The notes beneath the pieces were generated by a model, which ran no database searches, had not been told where the DNA came from, and saw only the letters and a list, made by a program, of their open reading frames with translations. From contig NC_061869.1 in assembly GCF_907164915.1 (NCBI RefSeq), forward strand, positions 26,839,616 to 26,903,615: a DNA stretch of 64,000 nucleotides, written 5' to 3'. This DNA is from Impatiens glandulifera. Lineage: Eukaryota > Streptophyta > Magnoliopsida > Ericales > Balsaminaceae. Of this stretch, positions 32 to 63,922 are shown piece by piece. The translations under genes were made by a program, and so were the position numbers. Every line of letters begins with the position of its first letter. Within the stretch, counting starts at the first letter, position 1.

Positions 32-3000
32 ATGGTGAAGAAAATCACGCTTGTTCACTGTACTTTGCAGGTGGACTTTCCATCTGTGTACACCTTCGAT
101 CAGCCGGAAGTGGTGAAGATGTTCCAAACCCTAGAATATTCTGGGTTGAGGAAGTATCTGGGCGGACCGTTCGTCTTCTATGAAGATGAAGTTCGCGAGT
201 TTTTCAAAACGGCGGTTATGGTGGATGATTCCATCGTAGAAACCATCAACGGAAAGGAGATCTCGTTTGACGAAGAAGTGTATGCGGAGTTCTTTGAACT
301 CCCAACGGAGGATCATCTGTTCGATTTGGTGCTCTCTTCTGAGGTCATGGAGGAAATGAAGACTTCCTTCTCTACTGATGGTTCCAAAATCAATGTTAAT
401 GGATATAAGAAGGTATTAAAGCCCCATTTTATTCTCCATAACGACGTTGTGGCGAAGGCGCTGCAAGGGATGTCCGACTCGTTCAACCTTTATAGTCAAG
501 ACCGTTTTGACTATATGTGCACTATCTCTAAAGGAATCCAAGTGAACTGGGGTCATACCCTGTTCCAGAATCTGTGTTACTCCATATGCCAGAGTAACAA
601 GGAAAGCATCACCTATGCGGCTCAATTGAGCCATCTATTGAAGTTCTTGGGGGTTCCTGTCGGTGAACCAACGCAAATTAACTCTGCAAGAGTTTTTATC
701 GATTCTACGGTTTCCAGCACACTGATCATTGTAAAGAACAACCTAGAGTCTGCTTCTGGAGCCTCTAGTTTCAAGACTGGTGGAAGGCCTTCCACGCGAT
801 CAAACCATCTACTTATGTTGTGTCAACAGGGGCAAAGAGAACCAGAATCGTGAATGAATCGGAGGCCAGTTTCTCCAGCATGAAGAGTCCAAGTCAGAAG
901 GACATGGAATTTGTCAATTCAAGAGTAAAGCAAGGTCCAGGCGTACTTGCTGCAACCCCGATGACATCTGTATCTACTCCCTCAACTTTCCTGAGGAAAC
1001 CTTCGAGGTCCTGTGCCTCGAAGGAGAAGAAGACAAAGGCGCCCCGCGCGTCTAAATCTGCTAAGGTAACGTCTTCTAAGTCTGTGGCTGCTGTGCCAAA
1101 GTTTGTTGTTCCCGAAGTGGAACAAGCTGAATCTGTCTTCTCTCCCCTGAGAGAATCTGCTGAAGGGCCTGCTGTTGAGTCAGTCGGTCCAATTGTTGAA
1201 TCTATTAACAGGGTAGAATCCCCTGTTACTAAATCTGATCAGGTAGCCGCCGGTGCTACAGAGTCGTCCATACTAGAACAAGGTGTTGTTCCTACCCTTG
1301 CTGCTGGTAAACCCATCATTCCTACTCCCAAGGACTCCTTGGTAGTTGGAAAAATCGTTTGCTGAGAGCTTCCTGCTGAGCTCTGTCTGAAACCTCAATC
1401 GGCCTTCGAATTGTTGCGGGCCAGGAAAGGAGCAAAAGGAATCGTCATTGGTGAACCCAGACCTATTCCAAAACCTGTAGAGGTTGTTGGAAAAGGAAAG
1501 TCAATTGCTCTTCAAGCTCCTAAGAAGGTGTCTGAAGCAAGAGAAATCGTTGATCTGATCTTGGATCAAGTAAAGGTTCTCTCATCCGAGAAATTAGAGA
1601 TCTATGATTCCTGGCATACTGAGAGGTTGTCCTCTAGCTATAATGGTTCTCTGTCCAATGCTGCCATAACGAAAGAATGGAAGAAGAGAGTGGCAAACGA
1701 GAAGAGGGTCCTGAAGTGGGCAAGAACTTCAGATGCGACTGAAGCTTTGAACAAAAGAGAGTTGGTGGAATCTTGCATTCTTGGGAAAACTCTGTTCCCA
1801 ATTTATGAAGCCAGGAAAGCAAACTTCAACCCTGACGTAAAAGGAGCTCCTATTGAAACCAAAGTTCTAAAGAAGTTAAATGATATCATGGAAGGCTATG
1901 TCTCTGTCGCATCCAGATACATCCATGGCGCCGATTGCTCTGGCGCAAAACCGCTCAATGAAGAAGAAGCCATGGACATTTCAAATGCTGATGAATCAGA
2001 TGCTGCTCTCCTGATCGAATTCGGGACCCTGTCTGCCGAAGAGAGATGCATTCAAGATCACCCTTTTCAAGAGCTTCCCAATGAAGATGAAGCAATGGTG
2101 AATGTTCAAGAGCCTAAACAAGCTCCTGTAACAAATGTTGAAGAAGCAATCTTGGAAGATGTAGTTGAGGAGGCTTCAAAATCTCCTTCTGAAGAAGACG
2201 TGATTATAACCCCTATTGTGAGAACAGAGGGTGTTCAAGAAATATTGGCTGAGGCCAATCAGCCTGAAACTGCAAGAACTGAGGGGGAACCCTCTAAGGA
2301 AAAAGGTGATGAAGAAGAAGGTTCCTCGTCTAAAGAGGAATAGGATGAGCAACCCAAATTTGTTAAGATCGACTTATTTCCCAAAGGTGCTGTGGGAAGT
2401 GTTCACGAAAATATAACCAATCCCGGTCACTATGCTGGAAGTTTGCTCGAAAGATTCGAAAGGGCACAGAAAGAAATTGACGAAGAAGAGGCACAAGAGA
2501 AAGCTGCTAAGGATGTTGAAGTTCATCAGCCAGAGCAATCCTTGCAGGTTCATACAAACTTTGAGCCTATTCAAAGTATGGCTGCACAATCTGAAGAAGT
2601 GTCCTCTCACGAAGGTCCATCCGCTGGAGGAAATAATATGTTAAGATCTATGAGGTCTATATTTTCAACAATGCAGAAGACAATGTGTCAATCAATGATT
2701 TCCAGGGAAGAGGAAAGAGCGAATTTTGATAAAATGTTCAATATCCTATCTGAGTTGGATAAGACCCTGAAGTTGAACACCTATGAGACCCATGTCTCTA
2801 ATGTGAAGTTTGGAAAATTTGAGCAAGAATGCTTCAGCCGCCAATCTGAACTATTCGACATTGAGAGGCACATCAATGACGAATGCCACAAGGAAACCTT
2901 AGATGAATTCACTTTGGTGAAGAATCAGCTGGTGGAAATGCAGGGTTGCATGAACCGAAACGACAATGAACGACAAGCCTTTGCCGAGAACCTTGCCAGA

Positions 3001-12161: not shown

Positions 12162-12918
12162 TGTTGTTATGTAAATAAATTGAGGGGGAAAATTGGTTCA
12201 AACGTAAATGGACAGACATGAAGACAAAGGTCTCAATACGTCCAATGAACTAGAAGTTTAAGAAGCATAACCACTTAGACGTACGTCTACTCAAGAAGTT
12301 TTTATCTTCTCTCGGGAACTCACATCTTGGTTAATTAACCCACGTGGTTAGACGTATACGTCTAATAGATGTTAGACGTTTTTATGACAAGAGCAATTGG
12401 ATGCTCACGTCTAATCAAACACACGTCTAATAAGTGTTGTTCATGCATAGTTAGATGTCTACGTTTAATAGACGTTAGATGTTTATAAGACACGTGATTA
12501 GACGCTTGCGTCTAATAGACCCATGCGTCTAATAGACGAATTTCCCAATAAGAAGTGAAGAATGTGAAAAGTATATTAAATGTCTAACTACTTGTCAAAT
12601 ATAAACCAGTCACTTCTCAAATAGATTGAAGACAAGTGTCTCTAAATTTTTCAAAAGTGACTAAAATTTCTGATAACGTTCTTCTATACGTCTAATACTG
12701 ACTGTGCAGTTTCATGATTAATATTAATTGATAGACATGTCCCTTGGGAATAGGTTTCTGAATTTTTTGACGAATGGTATAATCATTAAATATGAATTGT
12801 TTCACGTTAACTCTCTGATATTTAATGAATGGTGTCACTCAAATGGTTGAGTGCTCCTAAATCATTGTCTCTCTCTCTAGAATTTGAATCGTCAAATTCT
12901 TGTGTTCATCTTGACAAA
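12162..12918 (+). promoter_or_regulatory. Post-pol leader of family A with TTAGAC palindromes
   Basis: This spacer links the pol stop to the first post-pol ORF. It opens with GAGGGGGAAAATTGG, which aligns with the region after pol in family B (about 56950). It carries several inverted repeats of the LTR minisatellite type, including a perfect 18-bp palindrome TTAGACGTATACGTCTAA at 12348-12365 and TAGACGTACGTCTA near 12278. A TATAAAC sequence lies near 12600, and a CT-rich stretch (TCTCTCTCTCTAG) near 12868 precedes the ATG at 12919. Confidence 0.55.
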
Positions 12919-13582
12919 ATGACTTCTTTCACTCCAAAATCCCTGCAAGTAGATTTCAAATATGTTTCTACTCTGACGATTCCTGGAATGATTCAAATGT
13001 TTGAATCATTGAAAGCCTCTAGGTTGAAGAAGTTTCTTCTCCCTCACTGCATTTATCACGAACAAGTTGTTCGTGTGTTCTTCGAATCTGCTAGCTTTTA
13101 CCACAACAAATACATTCGTGCAAATATTCTTGGCAAAGACATATGCTTCTCTGAAGAAACATTTGGCTTGTTCTTCAGACTCCCAACCAAAGGTATCCAT
13201 GAGTTTCCTTCTTCCCCAAATGAGATTCTGTCTGAAATGATGAATGTCTTTTTAGATCAAACCTCCTAAGAGGAAACTCTTCCTGTTGAGTATCACGGGA
13301 AGAGTAACTTCTTGAAAGTTTAGTATGCCCTACTCAACGACATTATCTCCAAATCCTTTCTTGCAAAAGACTCCTTCTACATCTACTGTACGAAGGTCTT
13401 TTAAATGATGGTGCCCATCACAAGGGGTGTAGCCATCAACTGGTCGAAATTCCTCTTCATCAACCTGGTCAAAATGATATGCTCCCAGAAGAAGATCTTC
13501 GGTTATGATGCTCCTCTTTGCGCATTCCTTTGATGTCTTCTTGATGAACCTAGTCACGGGTTTCACTCCTCTTCCAAAATCT
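12919..13582 (+). pseudogene. Family-A post-pol domain ORF, tandem copy a
   Basis: The ATG at 12919 opens a domain of the 32/57423/58608/59795 type: QVDF, MFESLKASRLKKFLL, VVRVFFESA, FRLPTKGIHEF, then NDIISKSFL, INWSKFLFINLVKM and FGYDAPL. The frame has stops at 13267 (TAA), 13321 (TAG), about 13402 (TAA) and near 13530, but the domain remains readable to the repeat junction at 13582. The open reading extends upstream to 12829, but the CT-rich leader and alignment favour 12919. The large tail seen in other post-pol ORFs is absent because the sequence is cut at the duplication joint. Confidence 0.7.
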
Positions 13583-14176
13583 TGCTCACGTCTAATCAAA
13601 CACACGTCTAATAAGTGTTGTTCATGCATAATTAGATGTCTACGTTTAATAGACGTTAGATGTTTATAAGACACGTGATTAGACGCTTGCGTCTAATAGA
13701 CCCATGCGTCTAATAGACGAATTTCCCAATAAGAAGTGAATAATGTGAAAAGTATATTAAATGTCTAACTACTTGTGTACTTAGACTTTTAATCTTCTAG
13801 CTATCTGGACAGCTGTCATCTGCAAAGGTATTTGTCTATGTACTATTTCCCGCAAAATATAAACCAGTCACTTCTCAAATAAATTGAAGACAAGTGTCTC
13901 TCAATTTTTCAAAAGTGACTAAAATTTCTGATAACGTTCTTCTATACGTCTAATACTGACTGTGCAGTTTCATGATTAATATTAATTGATAGACGTGTCC
14001 CTTGGGAATAGGTTTCTGAATTTTTTGACGGATGGTATAATCATTAAATATGAATTGTTTCACGTTATCTCTCTGATATTTAATGAATGGTGTCACTTAA
14101 ATGGTTGAGTGCTCCTAAATCCTTATCTCTCTCTCTAGAATTTGAATCGTCAAATTCTTGTGTTCATCTTGACAAA

Positions 14177-14752
14177 ATGACTTCTTTCACTCCAAAATCC
14201 CTGCAAGTAGATTTCAAATCTATTTCTACTCTAACGATTCCTGGAATGATTCAAATGTTTGAATCATTGAAAGCCTCTAGGTTGAAGAAGTTTCTTCTCC
14301 CTCACTGCATTTATCACGAACAAGTTGTTCGTGTGTTCTTCGAATCCGCTAGCTTTTACCACAACAAATACATTCGTGCGAATATTCATGGCAAAAACAT
14401 ATGCTTCTCTGTAGAAACATTTGGCTTGTTCTTCAGACTCCCAACCAAAGGTATCCATGAGTTTCCTTCTTCCTCAAATGAGATTCTGTCTGAAATGATG
14501 AATGTCTTTTTAGATCAAACCTCCGAAGAGGAAACTCTTCCTGTTGAGTATCACGGGAAGAGTAACTGCTTGAAAGTTTAGTATGCCCTACTCAACGACA
14601 TTATCTCCAAATCCTTTCTTGCAAAAGACTCCTCCTACATCTACTGTACGAATGTCTTTTAAATGATGGTGTCCATCACAAGGGGTGTAGCCATCAACTG
14701 GTCGAAATTCCTCTTCATCAACCTGGTCAAAATGATCTGCTCCCAGAAGAAG
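14177..14752 (+). pseudogene. Family-A post-pol domain ORF, tandem copy b
   Basis: Nearly identical to the copy at 12919. It stays open past the TAA that ends copy a (reading SEEET) to a TAG at 14579, which all three copies share. A shared TAA in the VF*MM segment follows, so the gene was broken before it was duplicated. It ends at about 14752, where a deletion joins it directly to inverted family-C sequence. Confidence 0.7.
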
Positions 14753-33731: not shown

Positions 33732-34559
33732 ATGTTGTTATGTAAATAAATTGAGGGGGAAAATTGGTTCAAACGTAAAAGGACAGATATGAAGACAAAG
33801 GTCTCAATACGTCCAATGAACTAAAAGTTTAAGAAGCATAACCACTTAGACGTACGTCTACTCAAGTGTTTTTATCTTCTCTAGGGCACTCACATCTTGG
33901 TTAATTAACCCACGTGGTTAGACGTATACGTCTAATAGAAGGTTTTATGACAAGAGAAATTGGATGCTCACGTCTAATCAAACACACGTCTAATAAGTGT
34001 TGTTCATGCATAATTAGATGTCTACGTTTAATAGACGTTAGATGTTTATAAGACACGTGATTAGACGCTTGCGTCTAATAGACCCATGCGTCTAATAGAT
34101 GGATTTCCCAATAAGAAGTGAAGAATGTGAAAAGTATATTAAATTTATAACTACTTGTGTACTTAGACTTTTCATCTTCTAGCTATCTGGACAGCTGTCA
34201 TCTGTAAAGGTATTTGTCTATGTACTATTTTCCCGCAAAATATAAACCAGTCACTTCTCAAATAGATTGAAGACAAGTGTCTCTCAATTTTTCAAAAGTG
34301 ACTAAAATTTCTGATAACGTTCTTCTATACGTCTAATACTGACTGTGCAGTTTCATGATTACTATTAATTGATAGACGTGTCCCTTGGGAATAGGTTTCG
34401 GAATTTTTTGACGGATGGTATAATCATTAAATATGAATTATTTCACGTTAGCTCTCTGATATTTAATGAATGGTGTCACTCAAATGGTTGAGTGCTCCTA
34501 AATCCTTGTCTCTCTCTCTAGAATTTGAATCGTCAAATTCTTGTGTTCATCTTGACAAA
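33732..34559 (+). promoter_or_regulatory. Post-pol leader of family A, copy 2
   Basis: Same content as 12162-12918: the GAGGGGGAAAATTGG start, TTAGAC palindromes (TTAGACGTATACGTCTAA near 33918), TATAAACC near 34241 and a CT-rich stretch before the ATG. It keeps the ~75 bp lost near 12596. Confidence 0.55.
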
Positions 34560-35225
34560 ATGACCTCTTTCACTCCAAAATCCCTACAAGTAGATTTCAA
34601 ATCTGTTTCTACTCTAACGATTCCTGGAATGATTCAAATGATTGAATCATTGAAAGCCTCTAGGTTGAAAAAGTTTCTTCTCCCTCATTGCATTTATCAC
34701 GAACAAGTTGTTCGTGTGTTCTTTGAATCCGCTAGCTTTTACCACAACAAATACATTCGTGCGAATATTCTTTGTAAAGACATATGCTTCTCTAAAGAAA
34801 CATTTGACTTGTTCTTCGGACTCCCAACCGAAGGTATCCATGAGTTTCCTTCTTCCTCAAATGAGATTCTGTTTGAAATGATGAATGTCTTTTTAGATCA
34901 AACCTCCGAAGAGGAAACTCTTCCTATTGAGTATCACGGGAAGAGTAACTGCTTTAGAGTTTAGTATGCCCTACTCAACGACATTATCTCTAAATCCTTT
35001 CTTGCAAAAGACTCCTCCTACATCTACTGTACGAAGGTCTTTTAAATGATGGTGTCCATCACAAGGGGTGTAGCCATCAACTGGTCGAAATTCCTCTTCA
35101 TCAACCTGGTCAAAATGATCTGCTCCCAGAAGAAGATCTTCGGTTATAATGCTCCTATTTGCGTATTCCTTTGATGTCTTCATGATGAACCTGGTCACGG
35201 GTTTCACTCCTCTTCCAAAATCTTG
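34560..35225 (+). pseudogene. Family-A post-pol domain ORF, unit-2 copy
   Basis: The single copy here keeps more of the domain than either unit-1 copy. It is open from the ATG at 34560 to TAG at 34962, and readable on through NDIISKSFL, INWSKFLFINLVKM and FGYNAPI. Its stops (TAG 34962, TAA in VF*MM, and one near 35154) are shared with unit 1. It is cut at 35225 by inverted family-C sequence. Confidence 0.7.
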
Positions 35226-44348: not shown

Positions 44349-44415
44349 TAGACCAAATGTATTTCTCTTTCGATATCTCTGATCTACATATGCTTAAAAC
44401 ATATATTTGTTGCTA

Positions 44416-44423
44416 TATTTATA
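44416..44423 (-). promoter_or_regulatory. TATA box of ASG1-like copy 2
   Basis: CTATAAATATAG on the minus strand, 68-75 bp before the ATG at 44348, as in copy 1. Confidence 0.6.
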
Positions 44424-49282: not shown

Positions 49283-50408
49283 CACCAGGAGGCGTCGCAC
49301 TTCTCTAGATCTCCACCTGAGGATGATGGCGGTCCGAATCTGGCTGCAACCGAGCATATCTCTCCTCAAGAGAACCCCATAATCAACGACACCGACCTCG
49401 GGACGGGTACACCTCCCACTGGTCAGCACGTATCTCTTCAAACCGATAATGAATCGGTACCGGCTGTAACAGAAGATAGCGTAAAGGATCTAATCGAGGA
49501 ATTTGTCAATGCCGACATTCTGCCGTGACAAAAGAAGATAAAAGAAACCGCGACTAAATCCATCGAGATGATTGAGTCTACCAATAAAGAGCTAGAAACC
49601 GCGGTTGGACGGATCACGTCCGTTGAGGACAAATACGGCCTTACCGACCTTTTGCTCAGTGACACAACTGACATAACTAAGGTATTGGAGACCGTATTTA
49701 AGAAGTTAGAGACTGATCTCGCTCTTACCAGCCAAAAGGTCGATTTGGCAGAACTAAACCAAATAACAATCGATCAAAGGCTGAAAAAAATTGAAGGGGA
49801 CCTGTCTCAATCCGATATCCAGGCCGGATCCACACTTGAAGAAATAGCAACGCTTAAAGAGAAGCATGCCAAGACCGAAGCCGATTTAAAGGCGGTCAAC
49901 GAACAACTGGCGGAGATGATAGCGGAAAAGCTGGCAACCGATAAAGTACTTGAGAAGGCAAATGAGCTCGCGACTCAAAAGATTCAGGATGCCCTGGACG
50001 AGCAGGTCCGGCTTCAAAAGGAAACGCCACTGGCGGATGCGAACCAGGCCGGACATATGCAAACATTAGAAAACATTGCACCGGCCGTGGAGATTCAGCA
50101 AAAAGAAGATGCAGCTCGACTAATCGGCCAACAGTCATCATACAATGAGTTCGCCGAGGCTCATAAGAAGTCCAAAGCGGTTGCTTCCACATCCGGTCCG
50201 GTTACAAGAAAAAGAAAGTCTTTTTCCAAGAGGGCGGCAATTTCAAAGCTATTGGACAACGTTACTGAAGCAGTTGTTGATCCTCCAATCAACCCGGTTT
50301 CGCAAGATGATGACGATCTCAAGGATCCTCCCCAGGCCTGCTCCAGCAGTCAAGGGAAAAGCAACTAATGAAATGCTGTAAAAATACATGCCCAAGAAGA
50401 AGAAATAG
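49283..50408 (+). pseudogene. Family-B third post-pol ORF, 5'-truncated copy 2
   Basis: Same truncation point as 30314 and the same Trp-to-TGA stop (49526-49528). The coiled-coil part is then open from 49568 to about 50320. A deletion of about 120 bp removes the PLTKRPRG region between GATCTC and AAGGATCCTCC, shifting the frame, and a further TAA replaces a Glu codon near the end. Encodes no complete protein. Confidence 0.75.
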
Positions 50409-50730
50409 GCGCTTCCTTTAATTAATATTACCTATGTTTACCCTAGTATAATTATATATATATATATATCAAGTATTTTTGGAAACCGGCTTACATTTTC
50501 ATTCTTGCATGGTTTTGAATATTTTAAATAAAATAATCAAAAAGGGAGAAATTGATAAAGGACAAATTTTTTTTCTTCTCTAAAATTTTTCAAAAGACAA
50601 AATTTTTCTCAAATTTTTCTAAGTCATTTTCCAAAAATCCGGCCAAATGAACTTTTAAAGAAATCGGCCTACATTTTGATTCTTGCATGGTTTTGAATAT
50701 TTTAAATAAAAGAATCAAAAGGGGAGAAAT
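50409..50730 (+). repeat. Duplicated polypurine-tract region before B-LTR2
   Basis: Tandem ~180-bp copies with AAAAAGGGAGAAATTGATAAAGG near 50540 and AAAAGGGGAGAAAT at 50717-50730 just before the LTR. Confidence 0.75.
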
Positions 50731-51873
50731 TGTTAGATAAATTAGACCGGATAAAAAATAAGAACCTAACAAAACAAACTTCCTGTGTAAGAGAACGGTT
50801 AAAGAATTCAAATTAGGCTCGGTCAAGTAATTCAACCGGTCAAGAACCTAACCGATCAAGAAGACAAGACCGGTCAGATAAGAAGACCAAAATCGTTAGA
50901 CATCCGGCCAACCTGAAGTTTTGAAAAACTGGAAGTCATCCGGTTAACCTAAACAATTGATCGGTGTAAAAAGAAACTTTGAGTATTTGTTGAAGATGAT
51001 ACCAAAGGGACATACCTTAGTATTGCCATATTCATACAAGTTTGAGGACAATCTGCAGGCTGCAGAAGACCGTCCGACAAGATCTTCCCACTCCGGGATA
51101 AATTAGAGGCGCAACTGTCCATCCGACAGTTGCCATATTAAGTAAAAGACAAACCTAACTGGTTTGACCTACACACTAGAAGCCTAAACCGCCATGTTTG
51201 AATCACTGAACCTCTGCTCAACCAATCAGATTCAAGAAGATGAAATGTGACCGTTGGCACATTTCACCTATAAAAGAAGGAGCTGAAGAGGAGTAAATGC
51301 AGTTCTAGAAGTTACAAGTTACAAGAGAAAACATTTAAGAGCTGCACCAACCTAAGTTATAAGTGATCTTTATCTCTCTACATTAAAACAGTTTAAGCGT
51401 GTATTTGAAGCGAGATTACAATTTCGGTGAGAATTGTATGAGTGTTTATCGAGCAGAAAATAATTCTCGATCGGATTGTGTTTGTGTATTCCTTAGTGAA
51501 TATCCTTCTCGCGGTTTCAAGAGGAAGGGGTGACGTAGGAGTTTCATCTCCGAACATCCATAAAAACCTGTCTTGTTATTTACTTTCTGCCGGCTTTACA
51601 TACTAACCGACCCTGCCTAAACCGACTTACTGAATCCCAAAACCAACCCAGCAAACTCCAAACCGACCTTATCCAAATACGGTTCTATTCATCCTGTGTG
51701 TGAGCTGCTTCAACCTGAAACAAACCACTTCCGCACTTGAACTAGGTTCAAGGGTTTGTGATAGTTTGTGTAGTATTGAAACCACGGTATTAATCTCTAA
51801 CCGGATTAAACACCAATATTTGAGTGCAAACCGGTCAGACCCCGTTCCCCCAGCCGCGACCTAGATCCTAACA
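50731..51873 (+). mobile_element. Family-B LTR copy 2 (1143 bp)
   Basis: TGTTAGATAAATTAGACCGG ... GATCCTAACA. A ~20-bp deletion (near 50830) and one near 51115 relative to the other B LTRs. TATAAAAG at 51269-51276 and U5 block at 51529-51541. One base of the preceding hairpin is mutated (CAAGA for CGAGA). Confidence 0.9.
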
Positions 51874-51875
51874 AT

Positions 51876-51887
51876 TGGTATCAGAGT
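51876..51887 (+). promoter_or_regulatory. Primer binding site of family B (copy 2, mutated)
   Basis: TGGTATCAGAGT: the last base is changed from C to T relative to 33058-33069. Confidence 0.85.
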
Positions 51888-51912
51888 AGTTAGTTTCAAT
51901 ACTCAAGCAAGC

Positions 51913-53683
51913 ATGTCTTTCGATAAGCCTCCAATGCTAGAAGGTGATGATTATGCCAACTGGAAGGCACGCATGACCCTTCATTTAATCACCATGAATG
52001 ACGAGATGCAGTACATCCTGACTGAAGGACCGGTAAAGATTGATAAAGAAAGGGAGGAATGGACAAAAGAAGACAGGAGAAGAAACAATCTGGACAGCCA
52101 TGCCAGAAACCGCATCACTAACGGTTTGGACATGAATACTTTTTGTAAGGTAAAAAATTGCAAAACCGCAAAGGAAATATGGGAAGCGGTGATTAAAATT
52201 CATGAGGGAAATGAAATAACCAAGGAAAACAAGATAATGGTGGCTACCCAGAAGTTTGAAAATATCAAGATGAAACCGGGAGAAACAATGAGGGAATACA
52301 GTGACTGGTTCACAGATGTGATAGACGAGCTATCAACTCTTGTAAAGAAGTATGACAACAAGGAAATCATCATGAAAGCGCTTAGATCCTTTCCAAGTGC
52401 ATGGGATATAAAGACAATGGTGATGAGGGAATCAAACTGTCTAAGCAAGATGAAGCTACACGATGTGTTCGAAGATCTTAAGGCATATGAGTTTGAAATG
52501 AGATCTAGGACTGAATATGAAGTTTCAGCCTCAACCTCTACTAAAGCCTTAGTCACATCCATAGAACCGGTTGCTCCTACACCGACCAGAACCGCTGAAC
52601 AGTTCACCGAGGATGCCATGGCAATGCTTGCTCAGAAATTTGGCAGATTCATGAAGAGAAGCCAACCGACAAACAACAACAACTATAACTACGGTGATAA
52701 ATCTAATGTTAGATGTTATAACTGCAATTGTTTGAGACATTTCAGGTGGAAATACAGAAAACCAAGACGGGATGACCGGAAACCGGACGATCAGAACCAC
52801 CGAAACAACTATCAACAAACCGGTGAAGGAAGTGAAGTTTAGAAAGCACTGATAGCCGATGACGGAGGAAGCTTATGGGCTCACAGTGACAGTGATGATG
52901 AACTCACATGTCTCATGGCAAATGAGGAACAAGTATTTGACTCTCCCTGTGAAGAATTTACTAAAGACGAATTATTTAATGCACTGAATGACATGGTAGC
53001 AGAGTATAAGAACCTATTAACACTAATACCAACCCAACTCAACTTTAGAACCGACCCCATAACACCAATCTTGACCGAACCAAAGACCATCCAACCTGAT
53101 AAAATCCTAGAAACCGAGATAGCACCTGAAATATCCTCTAAGACCAAAAAATTCAAAGAGTCAGTTCAAGAATTGACCGAAGAGGTTGATGCCCGAACCC
53201 AGTATCGAATAGCCACATGGAAAAGATCTAGTGAAATGGTGAACCAAATGTCTAGGTACAAGAGACATCCCAAATGCAAATTTGGTCTTGGGTACAAAGA
53301 CAACAAATCCGCCAAACCAGAACCATTTGGACAAAATGAAGCTTACAAAAGGCAATCCTCCCTTCGTAAAATTTGTCAAGAGCATATCAACCGACGATGA
53401 GGAACAAGGTGATTCAAAACCGGACGACGAAATAACTTATGTAAGTCCAACTGACTCCAAAAATTGGCTTCATCCTGAGAAAAGGAAAGCCAACCGGCCC
53501 AAAGGTAAGAAAGCCGAACCACACAGGATAAACCAAAGGCCACCTCCGAATAAGGCACTCTTAGGAAAACAAAAAGACCTCAAACCGAGTATAGGAAAAC
53601 TAGTTAGAACCATAACCGGGAAAGTTGTCCGACTTATTAAAGTCTGGATACCTAAGGGACTAATCACTTGTGGACCAAAGTAA
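51913..53683 (+). pseudogene. Family-B gag, broken
   Basis: A Gag with MSFDKPPMLEGDDYANWKAR, AKEIWEAVIKIHEG and a KPGETMREYSDWFTDVIDEL segment (UBN2-like). The CCHC knuckle near 52713-52755 reads CYNCNCLRHFRWKY: its last Cys has become Tyr, so zinc binding would fail. A TAG stops the frame at 52840. The same frame resumes with an acidic Ser/Asp stretch and reads to 53400, then a frameshift near 53340-53370 leads to a Lys/Pro-rich segment ending IKVWIPKGLI and a TAA at 53681. That TAA is followed at once by ATGTGGGTACC, the same arrangement as at 9608 in family A. The pol frame is already open from 53670. Confidence 0.8.
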
Positions 53684-56600
53684 ATGTGGGTACCAAATAG
53701 TTGTAAATATGTATATTTTGCAGGATATGAAGAAACAGCTAGGAAACTCCGAGTGGTACCTGGATAGCGGTTGCTCCAGACACATGACTGGAAACAACAA
53801 TCTTCTAACCGACATCAGAATAGAAACTGGTGCAATGATTACCTTCGGTGATAACTCAAGAGGTAGAACTGTGGGCAAGGGTAATATTATACATGGTAAT
53901 TTAACAATTGATAATGTACTTTTAGTTGAGAACCTACATTTTAACCTACTAAGCATTAGTCAGATGTGTGATGCTGGATACACTATAGAATTCCTTAAAC
54001 ATGCATGCTTAGTTAAAAACTCTCAAGGTAACATACTACTAACCAGAAATATGTTAGGAAATATATACAAGGTAGATTGGAAAAACAAAGTAGAACACCC
54101 TGTTTGCATGGTAGATAAAACCGATCAAACCTGGCTGTGGCATAAAAGGTTAAACCACTAAAACCTGAAAACTTTAAACTATATCCGCGGTAAAAAGCTG
54201 GTTCAAGGAATTCCTGATATAGTATTCAATAAGGATAAAGTTTATTCAGATTGTCAAATGAGTAAACAAACTAAATCAACCTTTAAGAGTATAGGACACA
54301 TTCAGTCTAACCGATGCTTAGATCTCCTTCACATGGACCTATTTGGACCAATTAGGGTCGTCAGCCTAGGTGGTATGCTCTATACTATGGTAGTTGTTGA
54401 TGATTATTCTAGGTATACATGGATAATATTCCTAGCATCCAAACGTGAAACCGCATCAAACTTAATCACATTACTTAAACGTTTGAAAATGAAAAATCAA
54501 CACGCATAAATAGCATTAGGAGTGATAGAGGAACCGAATTTACAAATAGCACCTCGAATGCATTTCTTGATGAATCCGGCATTAGACACGAGTTGTCTAG
54601 CGCTAGAACTCCTCAACAGAACGGCCTGGCCGAGAGAAGAAACCGAACTCGCAAGGAAGCCGCAAGGTCCATGATAGCCGATTCGGGTGTTGCCTAGAAA
54701 TTCTGGGCTGAGGCTATCAATATTGCATGTCATACCCAAAACCGGTCTCTGATTAACAAGTTTCACAACAAAACACCGTATGAAGTATACTTTGATAGGA
54801 TTCCTAACCTTAGGTATCTTAAAATTTTCGGTTGTAAATGTTATATTCATATAAATGGCAAAAATTACCTATCTGCTTTTGATGCAAAATCCGATATTGG
54901 GATCATGTTAGGTTACTCAGCAGTCAGTAAAGTTTATAGAGTGTATAACACCAGAACTTTAACTGTGGATGAATCTCTTCATATTATTTTCGATGAATCG
55001 ATTGAAAGTAACACTGCTTCATCCTTTGATCTACATAACAGATTGGAAAACAACAATATCCATTCTGATAGTGAAGATGAGGTTCCGTTTTTCAGACGGT
55101 TTGTCCATGACCAAATGGGTGATGATGAAACTCAGTCGGATCAAGCTGCCACACAGCAGGAAGTTGACACCTCGGTTCAAACTGAGGAAATCGGTCGGTC
55201 TGACATTTTTGTTCAACCTACCGATATGTCTAGCCTTGATCAAATAAACGGTGATTTGGTAGACACTCCTGAACCTAATCTCAAAAGGAACACAAATCAT
55301 CCTCCTGAGCTTATTATAGGTTATCCTTCAAAGCTTGTCCAAACTAGGCAATAAATCTTGGAGGAATACTTTAATTCCGCTTTCATATCCCAGATTGAGC
55401 CGAAAAGGGTGGATGAAGCACTGTCAGATCCGGATTGGATCTTGGGAATGCAAGAAGAGTTAAACCAGTTTGAAAGTAACAAAGTCTGGTACCTAGTCCT
55501 TAGACCGAAAGATCATCCGGTCATAGGAACAAGATGGGTATTTAGAAATAAACTCATTGAAGACGGTTTGGTCACGAGGAACAAAGCCAGATTAGTGGCA
55601 CAAGGATACAAACAGGAAGAAGGCATTGATTTTGAAGAATCATTTGCCCCTTTAGCTAGGATTAAAGCCATTATGATTTTTCTGGCCTTTGATGCCTTCA
55701 AAAATTTTAAAGTTTTTCAAATGGATGTCAAAAGTGCATTTTTGAATGGTGACCTATGTGAGGAAGTATATGTTGAACAACCGCCCGGTTTTAAAAATGT
55801 TGATCTTCCTAATCATGTATACCGCTTAAACAAAGCATTGTACAGTTTAAAATAAGCTCCTAGAGCTTGGTATGATACACTAATTACGTTTCTGTTAAAA
55901 CATGACTTCACCATAGGTTCGGTAGATAAAACCCTATTTAAATTTGAGAAAAAGGAGAATATCCTACTTGTTCAAATATATGTGGATGACATCATTTTCA
56001 GATCAACCGATCCTAAGCTATGTGATAAATTCTCAACCTTGATGACTAACAAATTTGAGATGAGTATGATGGGAGAATTAAGCTTCTTCCTAGGTCTTCA
56101 GGTTAAACAGCTAGAAGGAGGAACTTTTATAAGTCAACCCAAATACACAAAGGAACTTCTAAAGAAATTTGGGATGGATACATGCTTCTCAGCCGCTACC
56201 CCAATGAGCTCATTAGTCAAATTGGACAAGGATGATGACGGTCAGGCAGTAGACCTAACGGCCTATCATGGAATTATCGGTTCACTCCTATACCTGACAG
56301 CAAGTAGACCAGATATACTATTTTCGGTCGGAGTGTGTGGAAGATTCCAGACTAATCCAAAACAGTCTCACTACACAGCCGCAAAGCGAATCTTAAAATA
56401 CCTAAAAGGAACCCCTGAAGTCGGTCTGTGGTATCCAAAGGACTCATCGTTCAACCTCACAAGTTACTCAGATGCAGACTATGCAGGCTGTAAAGTTGAC
56501 AGAAAAAGTACCAGCGGAACATGCCAATTCCTAGGTGATCGGCTTATTTCATGGCACAGCAAGAAGCAAACATCGGTTGCCACATCAACCGCAGAAGCTG

Positions 56601-56935
56601 AATATCTGGCAGCCGGAAGTTACTGTTCACAACTTCTATGGATCCAATAACAACTGAAGGATTTTGGTACACCGCCGAAGAGTCCCCAATATTCTGTGAT
56701 AACACAAGTGCCATAGCAATCACATACAATCCAGTCCTACACTCTTGAACCAAGCACATCTACATAAGGCATCACTTCATCCGGGAACATGTCATGTTGA
56801 AGTATATCCGGCTGGAATACGTATCAACAGAACAACAAGTAGACGGTATCTTCACAAAGCCCCATGCAGGAAGCTAAGTTTTCTTACTTCAGAAACATAC
56901 TCGGTTTAACCGACATTAATCAACTCATTTCTTAA
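53670..56935 (+). pseudogene. Family-B pol (PR-IN-RT-RNase H), broken
   Basis: The protease WYLDSGCSRHMTG lies near 53752. The pre-integrase zinc region is HKRLNH with TAA at 54159, and YSDCQ where CxxC is expected. Integrase has HMDLFGPI near 54332, RSDRGTEF near 54518 after a frameshift near 54500, and the C-terminal FWAEAIN. RT has [33 protein letters not shown] and YVDDIIF near 55978. RNase H has YSDADYAGC, RKSTSGTCQ and SKKQTSVATSTAEAEY to about 56640. Stops include TAG at about 54696 (Trp), TAA at 55352, TAA at 55853 (Gln) and TAA at 56648 (Gln), plus a frameshift near 56670. Unlike family A1, the RT core is present. The end aligns with LGLTDIN, stop at 56933. Confidence 0.85.
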
Positions 56936-57422
56936 AACTCTCAAAGGTCTAAAAGGAAAATCGGTTCGGACAGACAAAACCGGCAGTTCTACCAAGGTAC
57001 CTATTGAAGAACAGCTTCGTCTATCAGTCACAGTTAACCGACCGGTTACTTAGTGCGTGCACCAATTAACCGCATCGGGACAAATGACTGAAAACCGACC
57101 AGTTTGGAAATATTGTACTATGGACTATTTGGTCTTCGAACAAAAGTGGAACAATTATTTGTGTTTAAATATATCTGTTCTGAAAAAGTACCTTTTCAAA
57201 GCAAAATGGTCATACCTTAAAAGACGTGAAGATATGATATCTTTCACCGTCCAGGCCTATGACTCACATCCTAGGTTGTAGACATACTTATTTTATGCAA
57301 TATGTCTTATCCTATGGTCAATAGAATACATTAACTGCCACCTACTGGATAATACTATCATCCCTCCACTAATATATAAGTTAGGTAAACATCATACAAA
57401 ATATTCACAAGTATCAACTTAT
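56936..57422 (+). promoter_or_regulatory. Post-pol leader of family B with TATA-like box
   Basis: Spacer between the pol stop and the first post-pol gene. It opens with AAAAGGAAAATCGGTTCGGACAGAC, which aligns with family A at 12183. A TATATAAG box lies at 57373-57380, about 50 bp before the recognisable domain. Otherwise no coding is seen; the reading frame at 57057-57281 has no family resemblance. Confidence 0.45.
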
Positions 57423-58184
57423 CATCTCACTAAGACAAAACTGTCTCAGTTTCAAAACGTTCTCCAAGCTGATTTCAACTCTGCTCAAGGAACTGAACAC
57501 TAGGAGATATTCAAAATGATCAAGTCTCTTGAAGATACTGGTCTAAAATCCTTTTTAGATGAGAAACATGTCATCTTCTCTGAAACCGTTCTGGAGTTCT
57601 TCTACAATGCAAGGATCTTACGCGGTACTCCGTACTTTAACACCCTTATTCAATCAAGGGTTGGAAGAACCGTGTTTGACTTTTCGGAGAGTGATTTTGC
57701 CTAGTGCTTCGACCTTCCGAAGAAAGGGCTTACCGATCTAAACGTTCCAGCCGAACTAAAGGCCGAAATTTCTTTGAACTTCTCTAGGTCAAACCGTCCC
57801 GTCAGTGACCACGGTTCTAGGTCATCACTGAGGGTTGAATATCAGCTTCTCAATGATATCATCGGTCGGGGTATCCTGGGAAAAGATGTGACCAACACTT
57901 ACTGTGCCACAGTTTTCAACATGATGACCGCTATCACAACAGATACATCGGTCAACTGTTCCAGGGTGCTTTTTGATGTCTTGATCTGGATGATCACCAC
58001 TCGCTATACCGGCCTCATTCCCCAGATCAGCTGCCTACTCATAGAACTCGGGGTTCCGCTCTGTCCGGGCGAAGGGCTAAACCAGATCCAAGTCATAACT
58101 AGGGAAGTTGCCGACTCATTCTATGAGCGGTTCGAGAAGGCCTGGAAAAGGAAGAACCGACATGTCAACTCCTCCGGAAATTAA
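57423..58184 (+). pseudogene. Family-B post-pol gene I (retroelement domain, about 250 codons)
   Basis: One frame reads VLQADF, MIKSLEDTGLKSFL, VLEFFYNARI, CFDLPKKGL, LLNDIIGRGIL, FNMMTAI, NCSRVLF and LIPQISCLLIELGVPL, then ends in a basic KAWKRKN tail with TAA at 58182. These motifs align in order with post-pol genes II and III and with the family-A ORFs. In-frame TAG codons at 57501 and 57702 break it, and no ATG is found at the expected start near 57420. The ATG at 57516 would omit the first helix. Function unknown. Confidence 0.7.
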
Positions 58185-58607
58185 GTCACTCCTTCTTACA
58201 ACCGGTCATTTTGTTGTACGAACATTTTATATTGTCATTCTACTCCATTATGATCTTTTCGACTAATCTATGTGTTTCTTTCGGTTTGCTGTAACACCAC
58301 TTTCTTTAATGAAAAGTAACTTTTGATTTCCAACTACATGGGAAATTACACAAACCTAGTTACTTCCTAACTAGATTCTCCACCTCGAGCTCCGCAACCG
58401 GTCAAAAGTAACTCCTTCCCAAGGAGTTTTGGAAACATAAATATTCCCAACCTTAATAAGACAAAACGGAATATTGGCATTAAATGCCCCTATTTTCCCT
58501 CCAATCTCAAAACTATATAAGGAACCCCCCTTTATCAATTTGGCATACCTCCAAACAACTTATAATTTCTTAAACTCTCTCTCTCTCTCTTAGCAAAATT
58601 TGAAAGA
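58185..58607 (+). promoter_or_regulatory. Intergenic spacer with CCAAT, TATA box and CT-rich leader before gene II
   Basis: Downstream of gene I it holds T-rich DNA with TTAATGAAAAG near 58312, a plausible poly(A) signal. It then has CCAAT at 58501-58505, TATATAAG at 58514-58521 and a (CT)n leader at about 58574-58591, with the ATG at 58608. Box spacing and the pyrimidine leader match an ordinary plant core promoter. Confidence 0.5.
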
Positions 58608-59309
58608 ATGTCGAATCGTACTCTAAGAAACTATATTTGCATTGATTTCGACTCCGTCCTCAAAGATGAGGATCTTGAAGTGAAGGAACTCCTCTTTGAA
58701 TCCCTCATCGACACCAGCCTTCGTGACTTTCTTGAAGAATCCGGACCCCTCTTCATTCCAGAGGTAATGGAATTCTTCAATAATGCATCCATCTCCGGCG
58801 ATGCCATTATTTCTATCGTGAAGAACCACACATTTGTTCTTCACGAAAGCGAATTCTCCCGAATGTTCCGTCTTCTCACTGAAGGTTTCTCCGATTTCCT
58901 ATCCCGGGTGGGGAGTGCAGCGGTTGACTATGCGGAAATGTTTTCCGGAACCGAGGTACCGGTGGAGAACTACGGTCTGAAAAACCGCTTCGCCCACCAC
59001 ATCCAACTCCTTCACGAGATCGTCAACCGATCCATCATCTACCAATCTCCGAATCAAAATTATTCCAAGAAAGTCTTCGACATGATGACCTACATCATCA
59101 GCAACACCCCCATCAATTGGTCATCGGTCATCTTCAATAACTTGAAAACCATGGTCGTAACAAAGAAAAGTTTCGGCTATGCCCCCCACATCAGCCGGTT
59201 CCTTCGTACACACCATCCAAATCTTAGACCGGGTACCCCGGCGTACCTATCAAATGTTCTCCACGAGGAAGGGGTGGAGGACAAACTCTCTAAAATAGTC
59301 ATTACATGA
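58608..59309 (+). CDS. Family-B post-pol gene II (retroelement domain, 233 aa, intact)
   Basis: This is the only uninterrupted ORF of the element. Order of motifs: CIDFDSVL, LFESLIDTSLRDFL, VMEFFNNASI, FRLLTEGF, LLHEIVNRSI, KVFDMMTYII, INWSSVIFNNLKTMV, FGYAPHISRFL, then a short C-terminus. The LPTEG motif reads LLTEG. It is predicted to be all-alpha and soluble; I see no signal peptide, membrane segment or catalytic motif. It lies 94 bp from its TATA box and 423 bp from gene I. A relation to the Pfam putative plant transposon protein domain is suggested by the VxEFFxNA ... FxLPTEG spacing. Codon choice is richer in C at third positions than the AT-rich surroundings. Survival of a 702-bp frame in a decayed element may be chance. 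Confidence 0.7.
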   Translation: MSNRTLRNYICIDFDSVLKDEDLEVKELLFESLIDTSLRDFLEESGPLFIPEVMEFFNNASISGDAIISIVKNHTFVLHESEFSRMFRLLTEGFSDFLSRVGSAAVDYAEMFSGTEVPVENYGLKNRFAHHIQLLHEIVNRSIIYQSPNQNYSKKVFDMMTYIISNTPINWSSVIFNNLKTMVVTKKSFGYAPHISRFLRTHHPNLRPGTPAYLSNVLHEEGVEDKLSKIVIT

Positions 59310-59794
59310 TCTATAATCCCGTATCTTGTGTACTTTAAACTGATTTGTGTATCGGTCTCTATTATGCTTTCTCTTATTGAATGATCAATTAAATTTCTAA
59401 GTTCGAAAACCGAGTCAAAATTACATTAATAGAATATCGGTCTAAATGATCAACCGGTTACAAACGCTAACCGCTCGCTTAAATCACCGGTTAAATAACC
59501 GTCTAATGAGTAGACCGGCTACATTGAATAACCGCTTCATCACCGGTTAAATAACTGCATCAAATTCCCGCCCAATGTTTGCCGCCCATCGCTTGCCGCC
59601 CAAAGTCATTTTGGAGGGTAAATTCCCGCCCAAATCTGATGTGACAGTTCGCGGCGGTTGAGATTCCAACCCGCGACTATAAATATGGTCCTTAGTCATT
59701 TTACTTCATTCTTACGCGAAACGACTTTCTCTCTATCGCTTTCAAATCTCTAAAATTTCTCACGCTCTCGATATCTCGGTTTCTTCAACTCACA
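59310..59794 (+). promoter_or_regulatory. Intergenic spacer with TATA box and pyrimidine-rich leader before gene III
   Basis: A T-rich 3' part of gene II (TGTGTA, AATTAAATT near 59388-59398) is followed by GC-richer DNA with CCGCCCA repeats (GCCGCCCA near 59581 and 59594). A TATAAATA box lies at 59678-59685, and a leader rich in CTCT and TTTC runs to the ATG at 59795, 117 bp from the box. Confidence 0.5.
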
Positions 59795-62429
59795 ATGGGT
59801 CGCGAATCTGTAATTTTCACCCACATTGTCCAGGTCGATTTCGATGAAATTCGAGCAAATGGATCGGCGGAAACAAAACGGGTGTTAACCCAAATCTTTA
59901 AGTCCGGTCTTGAACACTTCTTGAACGGATCGTTCATCTTGTATCAAGAAGCGGTTACCGAGTTCTTTCAAACCGCCGAACATAGCGAAGGAACGATAAC
60001 TGCAGTAGTAGGCGGTAAACCGTTCAAACTCACCATGGAGTCGGTTGTTGAGGTCCTCCATCTGCCAACCGAGGGGAGCGACTTCTCGATGTTTATAGAC
60101 GAGGATACATTCCAAGCGGTTTGCCGGGATGTTTCGGATACTGTGGTACCAATAGTAGTGTCCGGTAAGAAAAACTCACTTAAACCGGAACTTAGACCGT
60201 TATGCGAGATCCTGTCTAAGTCGGTTCAAGCATGGAGGCAACTATGATAGTCTTACTCGAATGAAGATCGATATGATTGTCGGTTTAGTCAACGGCACTA
60301 AAATTAACTGGGCGAAGGTAGTCTTCACCAACCTATGTGAGATGGTGGATCCTTCATCTAAACGGTCATGGGGATACGCCGTTCCACTCGGCAAACTGAT
60401 GCGTCATTTCAACGCTGACACCGGCCCTGGTGTCTTTCTCCCCCCAGCAAATTCGTAAAAGCTCATAACTTTATTAGACCAGAGGAGAAACAAGGAAAAA
60501 CAAAGGTCTCCGGCAATACAAGCGGCCGAAGGAAGACAACAGCTAAAAAGAAGAAGACTCCGGCTAAAGACAAATCCGGAAGCAAGGCGGATCAACAACC
60601 GACCGAATCAGCTAATCTACAGTCCGACACTTTCCATACAGAAAATTCGGCATCCAGCTCTGGCCGAACCGCTTCACACCACACCGGAGAGGATCAGACT
60701 GGCAAAGGGAAAGAACCGATGGTCGAAGAACAATCGTCCAGAACTGATAATGTTGATGCCGGTTCGGGCAGACAATAGGAAGAAAATGAAACCGCGGATG
60801 AAAGCATTCGTCAAATGGGCGAGGACCTTGTCAAACAAATCATGAACGAAATCCACGTTCAGGCTCACGCTGCAAACGATGTCTACTTTCAATGGGCCCT
60901 GAACCGGCAGGAAATCTTCTACACCAACATGCTACCGGAACATCCTGCTGACCGGAGATACGAAAAGCTGGTTGAGATGGAAGCGGAAGTCATCAACCTC
61001 ACAAAGGCTTATAGCGTCTTGACCGCTCTTCGAAGAAGTAGGATGGTGGAACCGCATGCCCGGTTACTGGGGCTCACCGAACATATCCAACTTCTTCGAG
61101 AAAAGAACATCCCTGGGACGGAGGAATCCCAGTTCGAGATCCTAGTGCTGGATATGCTAGCGGTCAAAGAACGGGAACTGACCGATGAGTTGACACGGTT
61201 GGAAGCGGAACCCGAGCACCAGGTGGCGTCGCACTTCTCCAGATCTCCACCTGAGGATGATGGAAGTCCGAATCCGGCTGCAACCGAGCATATCTCTCCT
61301 CAACAGAACCCCATAATCAACGACACTGACCTCGGGACGGGTACACCTCCCACCGATCAGCACGTATCTCTTCAAATCGATAATGAATCGGTACCGGCTG
61401 TAACAGAAGATAGAATAAAGGATCTAATCGAGGAATTTGTCAATGCCGCCATTCTGCCGTGGCAAAAGAAGATAAAAGAAACCGCGACTAAATCCATCGA
61501 GATGATTGAGTCTACCAATAAAGAGCTAGAAACCGCGGTTGGACGGATCACGTCCGTTGAGGACAAATACGGCCTTACCGACGTTTTGTTTAGTGACACA
61601 ACTACAGATCTAAGGTATTGGAGACCGTATCTAAGAAGTTGGAGACCGATCTCGCTCTTACCAGACAAAAGGTCGGTTTGGCAGAACTAAACCAAATAAC
61701 AACCGATCAAAGGATGAACAAAATTGAAGGGTACCTGTCTCAATCCGGTATCCAGGCCGGATCCACACTTAAAGAGAAGCATGCCAAGACCGAAGCCGAT
61801 TTAAAGGCGGTCACCGAACAACTGGCGGAGATGATAGCGGCAAAGCTGGCAACCGATAAAGCACTTAAGGAGGCAAATGAGCTCGCGGCTCAAAAGATTC
61901 AGGATGCCATGGACGAGTAGGTCCTGCTTCAAAAGGAAACGGCACCGACGGATGCGAACCTGACCGAACATATGCAAACATTAGAAAACATTGCACCGGC
62001 CGTGGCGATTCAGCAAAATGAAGATGCAGCTCGATAATCGGCCAACAGTCAGCATACAATGAGTTCGCCGAGGCTCATAAGAAGTCCAAATCGGTTGCTT
62101 CCCCATCCGGTTCGGTTACAAGAAAAAGAAAGGCTTCTTCCAAGAGGGCGACAATTTCAAAGCTATTGGACAACGTTACTGAAGCGGTTGTTGATCCTCC
62201 AAGCAACCCGGTTTCGCAAGATGATGACGATCTCGAGGAAGAAACCGTACCGCTGACCAAAAGACCGCGAGGTCTTGAAGCAATTCCACTTAGATCGTTT
62301 GCTCTACCAGCTTCACCTTTCACCGATACTTCAAGCTGTCAAGGATCCTCCTCCAGGCCTGCTCCAGCGGTCAAGAGAAAGGCAACTGATGAAATGCTGG
62401 AAAAATACATGCCCAAGAAGAAGAAATAG
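59795..62429 (+). pseudogene. Family-B post-pol gene III (domain + basic linker + coiled coil + lysine tail), broken
   Basis: The ancestral ORF was about 870 codons. The N-terminal domain (to about 60450) has VQVDFDEI, IFKSGLEHFLNGSF, VTEFFQTAEH, LHLPTEG, INWAKVVFTNLCEMV and WGYAVPLGKLM. A Lys-rich TAKKKKTPAK segment follows, then a Ser/Thr/Glu-rich linker, a helical region from about 60815 with long Glu/Lys/Leu stretches (coiled coil about 61460-61920), and the basic RKRK, acidic DDDDLEEE and terminal KYMPKKKK. Lesions: frameshifts near 60235, 60450, 61610 and 62034, and TAG at 60776 and 61918. It sits just before the polypurine tract, like the family-A ORF at 32-3376, and shares that architecture. 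Two truncated copies lie at 30314 and 49283. The basic segments could be nuclear signals or nucleic-acid contacts (inference). Confidence 0.75.
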
Positions 62430-62744
62430 GGGCTTCCTTTAATTAATATTACCTATGTTTACCCTAGTATAATTATATATATCAAGTATTTTTGGAAACC
62501 GACCTACATTTTTATTCTTGCATGGTTTTGAATATTTTAAATAAAATAATCAAAAAGGGAGAAATTGATGAAGGACAATTTTTTTTTTCTTCTTTAAAAT
62601 TTTTCAAAAGACATAATTTTTCTCAAATTTTTCTAAGTCATTTTCCAAAAATCCGGCCAAATGAACTTTTAAAGAAACCGGCCTACATTTTCATTCTTGC
62701 ATGGTTTTGAATATTTTAAATAAAATAATCAAAAAGGGAGAAAT
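62430..62744 (+). repeat. Duplicated polypurine-tract region before B-LTR3
   Basis: A ~180-bp unit in tandem: CTTGCATGGTTTTGAATATT with AAAAAGGGAGAAATTG occurs near 62517-62568 and again at 62696-62747. The second tract directly precedes the LTR start; the first is followed by GATGAAGGAC instead of the LTR. Confidence 0.8.
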
Positions 62745-63922
62745 TGTTAGATAAATTAGATCGGATAAAAAATAAGAACCTAACAAAACAAACTTCTTGT
62801 GCAAGAGAACGGTTAAAGAATTCAAATTAGGCTCGGTCAAGTAACTCAACCGGTCAAGTAATTCAACCGATCGAGAACCTAACCGATCAAGAAGACAATA
62901 CCGGTCAGATAAGAAGACCAAAACCGTTAGACATCCGGCCAACCTGAAGTTATGAAAAATCGGAAGTCATTCGGTTAACCTAAACAACCGATCAGTGCAA
63001 ATAGACACTTTGAGTATCTGTTGAAGATGATACCAAAGGGACAGACCTTAGTATTGCCATATTCATACAAGTCTGAGGACAATCTGCAGGCTGCAGAAGA
63101 CCGTCCAACAAGATCTTCCCACTCCGGGATAAATTAGAGGCGCAACCCTCTAGGTGCAGGCAACTGTCCAACCGACAGTTGCCATATTAAGTAAAACACA
63201 AACCTAGCTGGTTTGATCTACACACTGGAAGCCTAAACCGCCAGGTCTGAATCACTGAACCTCTGCTCAATGAATCAGATTCAAGAAGATGAAATGTGAC
63301 TGTTGGCACATTTCACCTATAAAAGAAGGAGCTGAAGAGGAGTAAATGCAGTTCTAGAAGTTACAAGTTACAAGAGAAAACATTTAAGAGCTACACCAAC
63401 CTAAGTTATAAGTGATCTTTATTTCTCTACATTAAAAGAGTTTAAGCGTGTATTTGAAGCGAGATTACAATTTCGGTGAGAATTGTATGAGTGTTTATCG
63501 AGCAGAAAATAATTCTCGATCGGATTGTGTTTGTGTATTCCTTAGTCAATATCCTTCTCGCGGTTTCGAGAGGAAGGGGTGACATAGGAGTTTTATCTCC
63601 GAACATCCATAAAAACATGTCTTGTTATTTACTTTCTGTCGGCTTTACATACTAATTGACCCTGCCTAAACCGACTTACTGAATCCCAAAACCGACCCAG
63701 CAAACTCCAAATCGACCTTATCCAAATCCGGTTTTATTCAACCTGTGTGTGAGCTGCTTCAACCTGAAACAAACTACTTCCGCACTTGAACTAGGTTCAA
63801 GGGTTTGTGATAGTTTGTGTAGTATTGAAACCCCAATGATAATCTCTAACCGGATTAAACACCAATCTTTAAGTGCAAACCGGTCAGACCCCTGTCCCCC
63901 AGCCGCGACCTAGATCCTAACA
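62745..63922 (+). mobile_element. Family-B 3' LTR (copy 3, 1178 bp)
   Basis: TGTTAGATAAATTAGATCGG ... GATCCTAACA, followed by non-element DNA, so this is the true 3' end. TATAAAAG at 63318-63325; U5 block GGTGACATAGGAG at 63578-63590; intact hairpin TCTCG/CGAGA at 63556-63571. Confidence 0.9.

Follow-up and report, generated by a model that had tools for sequence, protein, structure and literature searches.

Sireviruses (SIRE-type Ty1/copia retrotransposons) are usually described with a single envelope-like (env-like) gene between pol and the 3′ long terminal repeat (LTR), and the role of this post-pol gene is described as unproven (PMC2829016, PMC3414828). A 13.2-kb element in a 64,000-nucleotide stretch of Impatiens glandulifera contig NC_061869.1 (hereafter the window), which consists of plant DNA with many LTR elements, contains three genes in the corresponding interval of 5.8 kb. 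What do these genes encode, how are they expressed, and is the label 'env-like' appropriate for them? The explanation that we consider the best overall, and regard as moderately probable, is that this is a SIRE-type element with three tandem paralogous accessory genes that have their own promoters and encode soluble regulators.

The three genes (A, B, and C in order from pol; Table 1) each encode one homologous domain of approximately 200 amino acids (aa). The original prediction, made from the sequence alone, had proposed three regions with shared ordered motifs, and these were confirmed: (V/A/I)DF, L..(S/G)L..FL, V.EFF..A, F.L.TEG-like, (I/V)N(W/C)...F..L, and (G/L)YA-like motifs are followed in all three by an (I/L)..LL-like helix. 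In tblastn searches of the window, B detected A at 5e-23 (32.5% over 209 aa, with one stop read through) and gave 1e-14 for C, and the N-terminal piece of C (C1) detected B at 4e-9 and A at 1e-7. The alignment scores of the N-terminal halves were far above the best of 200 shuffles (149 versus 51 for A–B, 112 versus 54 for A–C, and 116 versus 52 for B–C), as were those of the C-terminal parts for A–B (80 versus a shuffle maximum of 38) and B–C (100 versus 44); the C-terminal score for A–C (38 versus 41) is not significant taken alone. At the DNA level, a 19-base match between A and B (E = 0.005) and a 13-base match between B and C (E = 0.69) were detected, and no match between A and C was found at E ≤ 1. 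Such protein-level likeness with nearly no DNA similarity indicates an old duplication and points to conservation at the protein level. A, B, and C thus almost certainly form a paralogous array, as expected from the predicted three tandem and strongly diverged paralogs.

B is the sole intact open reading frame (ORF) of the three. In A, no ATG is present from 57423 up to the domain, and C leaves its frame at 60245, continues in another frame at 60246–60455, resumes its first frame from 60458 onwards, and is broken again within the tail. Because of the stops in A and the frame breaks in C, the term 'reading frame' applies only loosely to these two genes.

Four more copies of the domain were identified by tblastn in other elements of the window (D, E1, E2, and E3). 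In pairwise comparisons among A, B, C, D, E3, and E1, all 15 pairs of N-terminal halves scored above the best of 200 shuffles, as did 14 of the 15 pairs of C-terminal parts (the exception is A–C, and A–D exceeded the shuffles barely, 52 versus 51). E1 and E2 arose by tandem duplication of a unit of approximately 1.2 kb (blocks 97.4 and 99.0% identical, within 12402–14753); this duplication is absent from the segmental duplicate, in which E3 is single. This is the same kind of event as would have produced A, B, and C, and the view that the genes belong to an amplified accessory family is borne out by this recent duplicate of the same gene.

Table 1. Features of the three-gene element and further copies of the accessory domain in the window
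Feature	Position	Strand	Basis or remark
A, first post-pol domain copy, two in-frame stops	57423..58184	+	tblastn, shuffle-controlled alignments
B, second domain copy, intact 233-aa ORF	58608..59309	+	ORF, tblastn, alignments
C, N-terminal two thirds of domain, 150 aa open, no Pfam match	59795..60244	+	ORF, tblastn, alignments
C, C-terminal part of domain, different frame	60246..60455	+	tblastn, alignments; no Pfam match
C tail, long and charged, interrupted by frame breaks and ending in KKKK	60458..62429	+	ORFs, self-comparison
TATA-box match before A	57373..57379	+	50 bp before 57423, 77 bp before 57450
TATA box (CTATATAAGG) before B	58514..58520	+	94 bp 5′ of B start codon
TATA box (CTATAAATA) before C	59678..59684	+	117 bp 5′ of C start codon
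CpG observed/expected peak, 1.55 and 1.62 (the element's two highest 300-bp windows)	59431..60030	+	around C start; one CGGTTAAATAACCG dyad at 59488
5′ LTR (TGTTAG...CTAACA)	50731..51873	+	self-comparison, sequence; C-rich stretch close to 3′ end
LTR/primer-binding junction, ATTGG + TATCAGAGT	51874..51887	+	sequence; Sirevirus-type, last base mismatched
gag-pol	51913..56898 (end approximate)	+	ORFs, Pfam (gag Retrotran_gag_2, RVT_2); pol end resembles another copia pol
Polypurine-like tract CAAAAAGGGAGAAAT, two copies	62551-62565 and 62730-62744	+	sequence; second abuts 3′ LTR
3′ LTR	62745..63922	+	self-comparison, sequence
D, copy of the domain from a different element; its tail, long and charged, extends to 3376, then AGGGGGAAAT before its LTR	32..850	+	tblastn, alignments, Pfam
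E1, domain copy directly after pol of a third copia element	12829..13530	+	self-comparison, tblastn; no Pfam match
E2, recent tandem duplicate of E1	14087..14749	+	self-comparison, tblastn; no Pfam match
E3, single copy in segmental duplicate of the E region	34470..35195	+	self-comparison, tblastn; no Pfam match

The predicted SIRE-type context is supported by the junction motifs. The Sirevirus 5′ LTR/primer junction has been defined as CA/ATTGG/TATCAGAGC (PMC2829016); the element contains CA/ATTGG/TATCAGAGT at 51872–51887, differing in the last base, and a copy at 33059 carries TATCAGAGC at its junction. As in Sireviruses, a TATA box lies centrally in each LTR (51269 and 63318), and a C-rich stretch precedes both LTR ends at the place of the Sirevirus integrase signal (approximately 21 bp from the LTR end), as judged by eye alone; the published signal is a 19-bp motif. 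The Sirevirus tract octamer AGGGGGAG has zero occurrences in the window; two copies of the variant CAAAAAGGGAGAAAT are found instead, and the D element carries AGGGGGAA, a variant reported for ToRTL1 and Tnd-1 (PMC2829016). Database matches of the reverse transcriptase (RT) bear only general names among the best 120 of 7896. The locus resembles the eORF-3′F ('env-like') region of SIRE/Sirevirus elements in having sense ORFs between pol and the 3′ LTR, a CA/ATTGG/TATCAGAG junction, a C-rich LTR end, a central LTR TATA box, and a CpG peak where the third ORF starts; the repeated polypurine-like tract ahead of the 3′ LTR may fit as well. It differs in that three paralogous ORFs are present rather than one, hydropathy reveals no transmembrane segment, the tract deviates from AGGGGGAG, and the inverted repeat and dyad boxes were not found.

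Eight plus-strand matches to TATAWAW were identified in the element. Two are those in the LTRs, and the six internal ones are located in pol (54850), in the AT-rich stretch preceding the 3′ LTR (62474 and 62476, overlapping), and 50–117 bp ahead of all three genes. When each upstream region was subjected to 5000 dinucleotide shuffles, a match 40–130 bp before the start occurred in 9.0, 6.5, and 8.8% of the shuffles (product, 5e-4; 1e-3 for a 30–150-bp window). Because these distance windows were chosen after the boxes had been seen, the start of A is uncertain, and two TATAWAW matches also lie on the minus strand of these upstream regions, we regard the TATA evidence as moderate support. A CpG peak has been reported for the env region of Sireviruses, for which an internal promoter has been proposed and supported, although not conclusively identified, and SIRE1 uses stop-codon suppression (PMC2829016); stop-codon suppression and an internal promoter are both listed as expression mechanisms elsewhere (PMC3414828). 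On these sequence features, it is rather probable that A, B, and C have independent promoters.

No transmembrane-like segment was found in 14 pieces analyzed by Kyte–Doolittle hydropathy (highest 19-residue mean, 1.54, in A2), and no signal peptide was detected by hydropathy in the A, B, C, and D pieces, in agreement with the original prediction. An envelope function is not supported because no membrane segment is apparent, and the products are very probably soluble, non-envelope proteins. The most likely single function is a nuclear regulatory or anti-silencing role, which we propose tentatively by analogy with plant mobile domain proteins; in Arabidopsis, these have a part in silencing, and it has been speculated that copies captured by Mutator-like elements (MULEs) serve against silencing (PMC5418596). 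The plant mobile domain (PF10536; gypsy elements and host MAIN/MAIL1) is likewise an accessory domain of plant LTR elements (PMC6317226, PMC5418596), but it occurs in another retrotransposon superfamily, and no Pfam match to it was found here at E ≤ 10. The analogy rests on position and kind rather than on computed homology. A similar layout of the two domains (helices, a hairpin, and an LP.EG-like turn) is suggested only by a poor model.

The last paralog had been predicted to be fused to a coiled coil. In this copy, the domain and tail of C are not within one open frame, but the fusion is supported by P0122, a single I. glandulifera protein that joins parts of the D domain (residues 12–50, 74%; residues 206–259, 63%) to the start of the D tail piece (63% over the first 57 residues) and lacks the domain's middle portion. 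A crude heptad test failed to demonstrate the coiled coil: for the five tail pieces tested, the result was equalled in 3 to 24 of 100 shuffles. An intact tail ORF (315 aa, with basic clusters resembling nuclear localization signals) is present in the copy at 30599–31546, and the basic clusters and KKKK end of the C tail suggest a nuclear location. The D tail is also long and charged and reaches 3376; homology between the C and D tails is not claimed (score of 70 versus a shuffle maximum of 80). The D tail (2966–3376) ends in an RGG-rich sequence, suggesting RNA binding, and the C tail ends in lysines.

By profile comparison, the domain is distantly related to PF20167 (Transposase_32, 'Putative plant transposon protein'). 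Matches were obtained for D (3e-4, 21.1 bits), B (0.009, 16.4 bits), the Impatiens protein P0121 (0.027, 14.8 bits), and A with X at its stops (0.18, 12.1 bits), all below the gathering cut-off of 45 bits. Most of the profile's 177 positions are covered collinearly by D (14–177), B (8–174), and, more weakly, A (4–147), and P0121 covers 15–85. The original prediction had singled out this family for comparison, and C gave no match to it. In the Pfam search, no PF20167 match was found for the open A pieces alone, C1, the C-terminal piece of C (C2), the E pieces, P0122, or the tail, gag, and RT pieces. Because no established role was found for PF20167, the similarity does not place the genes in a family of established function. 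The idea of an undescribed accessory family is retained in part: the family has this remote relative, and sense 3′ ORFs, very heterogeneous, have already been reported in 74% of SIRE elements (PMC6317226). To speak of a 'system' goes beyond the evidence, since nothing shows the three proteins acting together. PF20167 has been found in a 3′ ORF of sunflower Athila and called related to Athila ORF1 (PF03078), and the sense post-pol position is also that of the sunflower Athila 14 ORF(+) (PMC11728184); besides the scores under the cut-off, the difference is that a copia element with three copies is concerned here. Accessory ORFs of unknown role with Transposase_28 (PF04195) also lie between pol and the 3′ LTR of Retand elements (PMC11963269), but these are antisense, whereas the present ones are sense and have no PF04195 match. 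In the portions of the open-licence literature covered, we found no account of a copia element whose post-pol ORFs are tandem paralogs, which is not proof of absence.

A search of 5.8 billion proteins with B yielded 187 candidates, none at E ≤ 1. As a control, an RT piece gave 7896 matches among 7987 scored in the same collection, with many named plants among the best 120, indicating that plant proteins are included and that B has no relative there sharing enough short words. When the domain alignment was used as the query, 2 of 3047 candidates were matches, and both are I. glandulifera proteins. In P0121, an NF-Y/histone-fold domain (PF00808, 1e-12) is joined to the accessory domain (67% identity with D across 115 aa); this reflects either an error in the gene model or a host gene that has become fused to a gene of the element. 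Pattern matches in viral contigs (7 for B and 5 for D) and in prokaryote contigs (19, D only) included none that was confirmed, and no matches were found in PHROGs for B and D, in Rfam for the element, or among PDB chains for the domain profile at E ≤ 10. Foldseek with the poor B model returned 148 PDB matches at E ≤ 10, of which none reached E ≤ 0.001. A scan for bacterial promoters and terminators was discarded as inapplicable to plant DNA.

In the explanation that we prefer, one gene with a PF20167-like domain would have been duplicated to give three tandem accessory genes between pol and the 3′ LTR, each forming its own transcription unit under an internal promoter rather than being expressed by read-through from pol. 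The products would be soluble proteins rather than envelopes, the third with a charged tail whose basic clusters hint at the nucleus, and would most likely serve as regulators of the expression of the element itself or of its steps in the nucleus, perhaps countering silencing by the host; the three copies may have split or diversified in role.

Three other explanations have to be weighed. It is quite improbable that A, B, and C are extra copies of the usual Sirevirus env-like gene, encoding an envelope or a protein for cell-to-cell spread. They share position and orientation with the env-like ORFs of SIRE elements, a charged tail is present in the third, the CpG peak lies where C starts, and env-like genes share little beyond transmembrane and coiled-coil domains according to MASiVEdb (PMC3414828); yet, by hydropathy, the A, B, C, and D pieces have neither a transmembrane-like segment (A2 comes nearest) nor a signal peptide, and the sole repeated Pfam signal is PF20167, which is not an envelope family. 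Somewhat less improbable, but still unlikely, is a functionless array derived from a gene captured and duplicated by chance and now drifting. In this copy, A and C are disrupted; the E copies contain stops, and dN/dS (the ratio of nonsynonymous to synonymous changes) of the tail copies is not below 1. Against this, the domain is kept, with its motifs aligned, in three different elements of the window at 23–40% aa identity, and A, B, and C are nearly without DNA similarity, which suggests long-term selection; moreover, gag-pol of this copy is also interrupted, at several places, so that decay after insertion can explain the stops.

A further possibility, which we consider doubtful although less so than a drifting array, is that C with its tail is the true accessory gene and that A and B are relics or were imported by recombination from E-type elements. 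This is opposed by the intactness of B and the TATA box upstream of it, and by the tree of the N-terminal halves, in which A and B group together (0.93) and A does not join E. That tree also separates C and D from A, B, and E (0.825). The tree of the C-terminal parts recovers none of these groupings and contains others at 0.459 and 0.736; orthology of C with D and of A with E is therefore only a suggestion from the trees.

Several observations weigh against three promoter-bearing accessory genes in a Sirevirus. A single element with A, B, and C together was seen, and the trees of the two halves of the domain disagree. The E copies have no TATA box close to their starts (no TATAWAW in 12400–12960, 13600–14220, or 34000–34600; only the looser TATAWW, at 141 to 425 bp, in a wider scan before E1 and E3), which counts against the generality of the arrangement. 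The tail copies at 30599–31546, 49568–50368, and 61504–62429 show no sign of purifying selection (dN/dS of 1.9 and 2.8 between copies); because the segmental duplicate also gives 1.7, this excess is probably noise or mutation bias. Other values, based on few changes, are 0.66 for gag and 0.45 for E2/E3, and silent sites of RT are saturated. C and the E pieces lack a PF20167 match, and the fold models of B, whose structure prediction had been suggested as a check, and of D are too poor to use (pLDDT of 47 and 42). As for the Sirevirus assignment, the inverted repeat at the tract/3′ LTR junction is not significant (64 of 500 shuffles were as good; 41 of 500 in the D element), and three published Sireviruses likewise have none (PMC2829016). 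CGG-CCG dyad boxes, a Sirevirus feature of LTRs and the region before env that is not present in all members, were found in neither LTR, with one in the 485-bp interval between B and C and no cluster before C.

The two LTRs of the three-gene element differ by a Kimura two-parameter (K80) distance of 0.051 (1143 sites; the 3′ LTR was taken with one extra base at its 3′ end). The element sits in a head-to-tail arrangement: an upstream partial copy, whose matching tail starts at 49283 by self-comparison, also ends in the 5′ LTR of this element, and the same arrangement is seen again at 30314–33570, inside a segmental duplication. This tandem duplication of approximately 20 kb (12002–33570 and 33573–52388; blocks 93–97% identical) has its borders in retrotransposon sequence (pol end and gag). 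The D element, which is cut off by the window edge, contains in its LTR a large TTAGAC/GTCTAA repeat array (3779–4832, with periods of 21 to 267 bp).

What is new here is the TATA match before each of three post-pol genes and the presence of three diverged copies instead of the usual single envelope gene. Three paralogs with close upstream TATA boxes allow a concrete and inexpensive test of whether Sirevirus 'env' genes use an internal promoter, and we argue that the label 'env-like' is wrong for this element. Through the remote similarity to PF20167, a copia element is linked with accessory ORFs of Athila elements, which belong to gypsy. As a more speculative extension, which we consider rather unlikely at present, some Sireviruses may carry a small multigene accessory locus of three diverged TATA-driven paralogs, expressed apart from the genomic transcript and encoding soluble, partly nuclear regulators of silencing or nuclear steps. 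If true, such a locus would resemble in its layout the regulatory genes that complex retroviruses carry.

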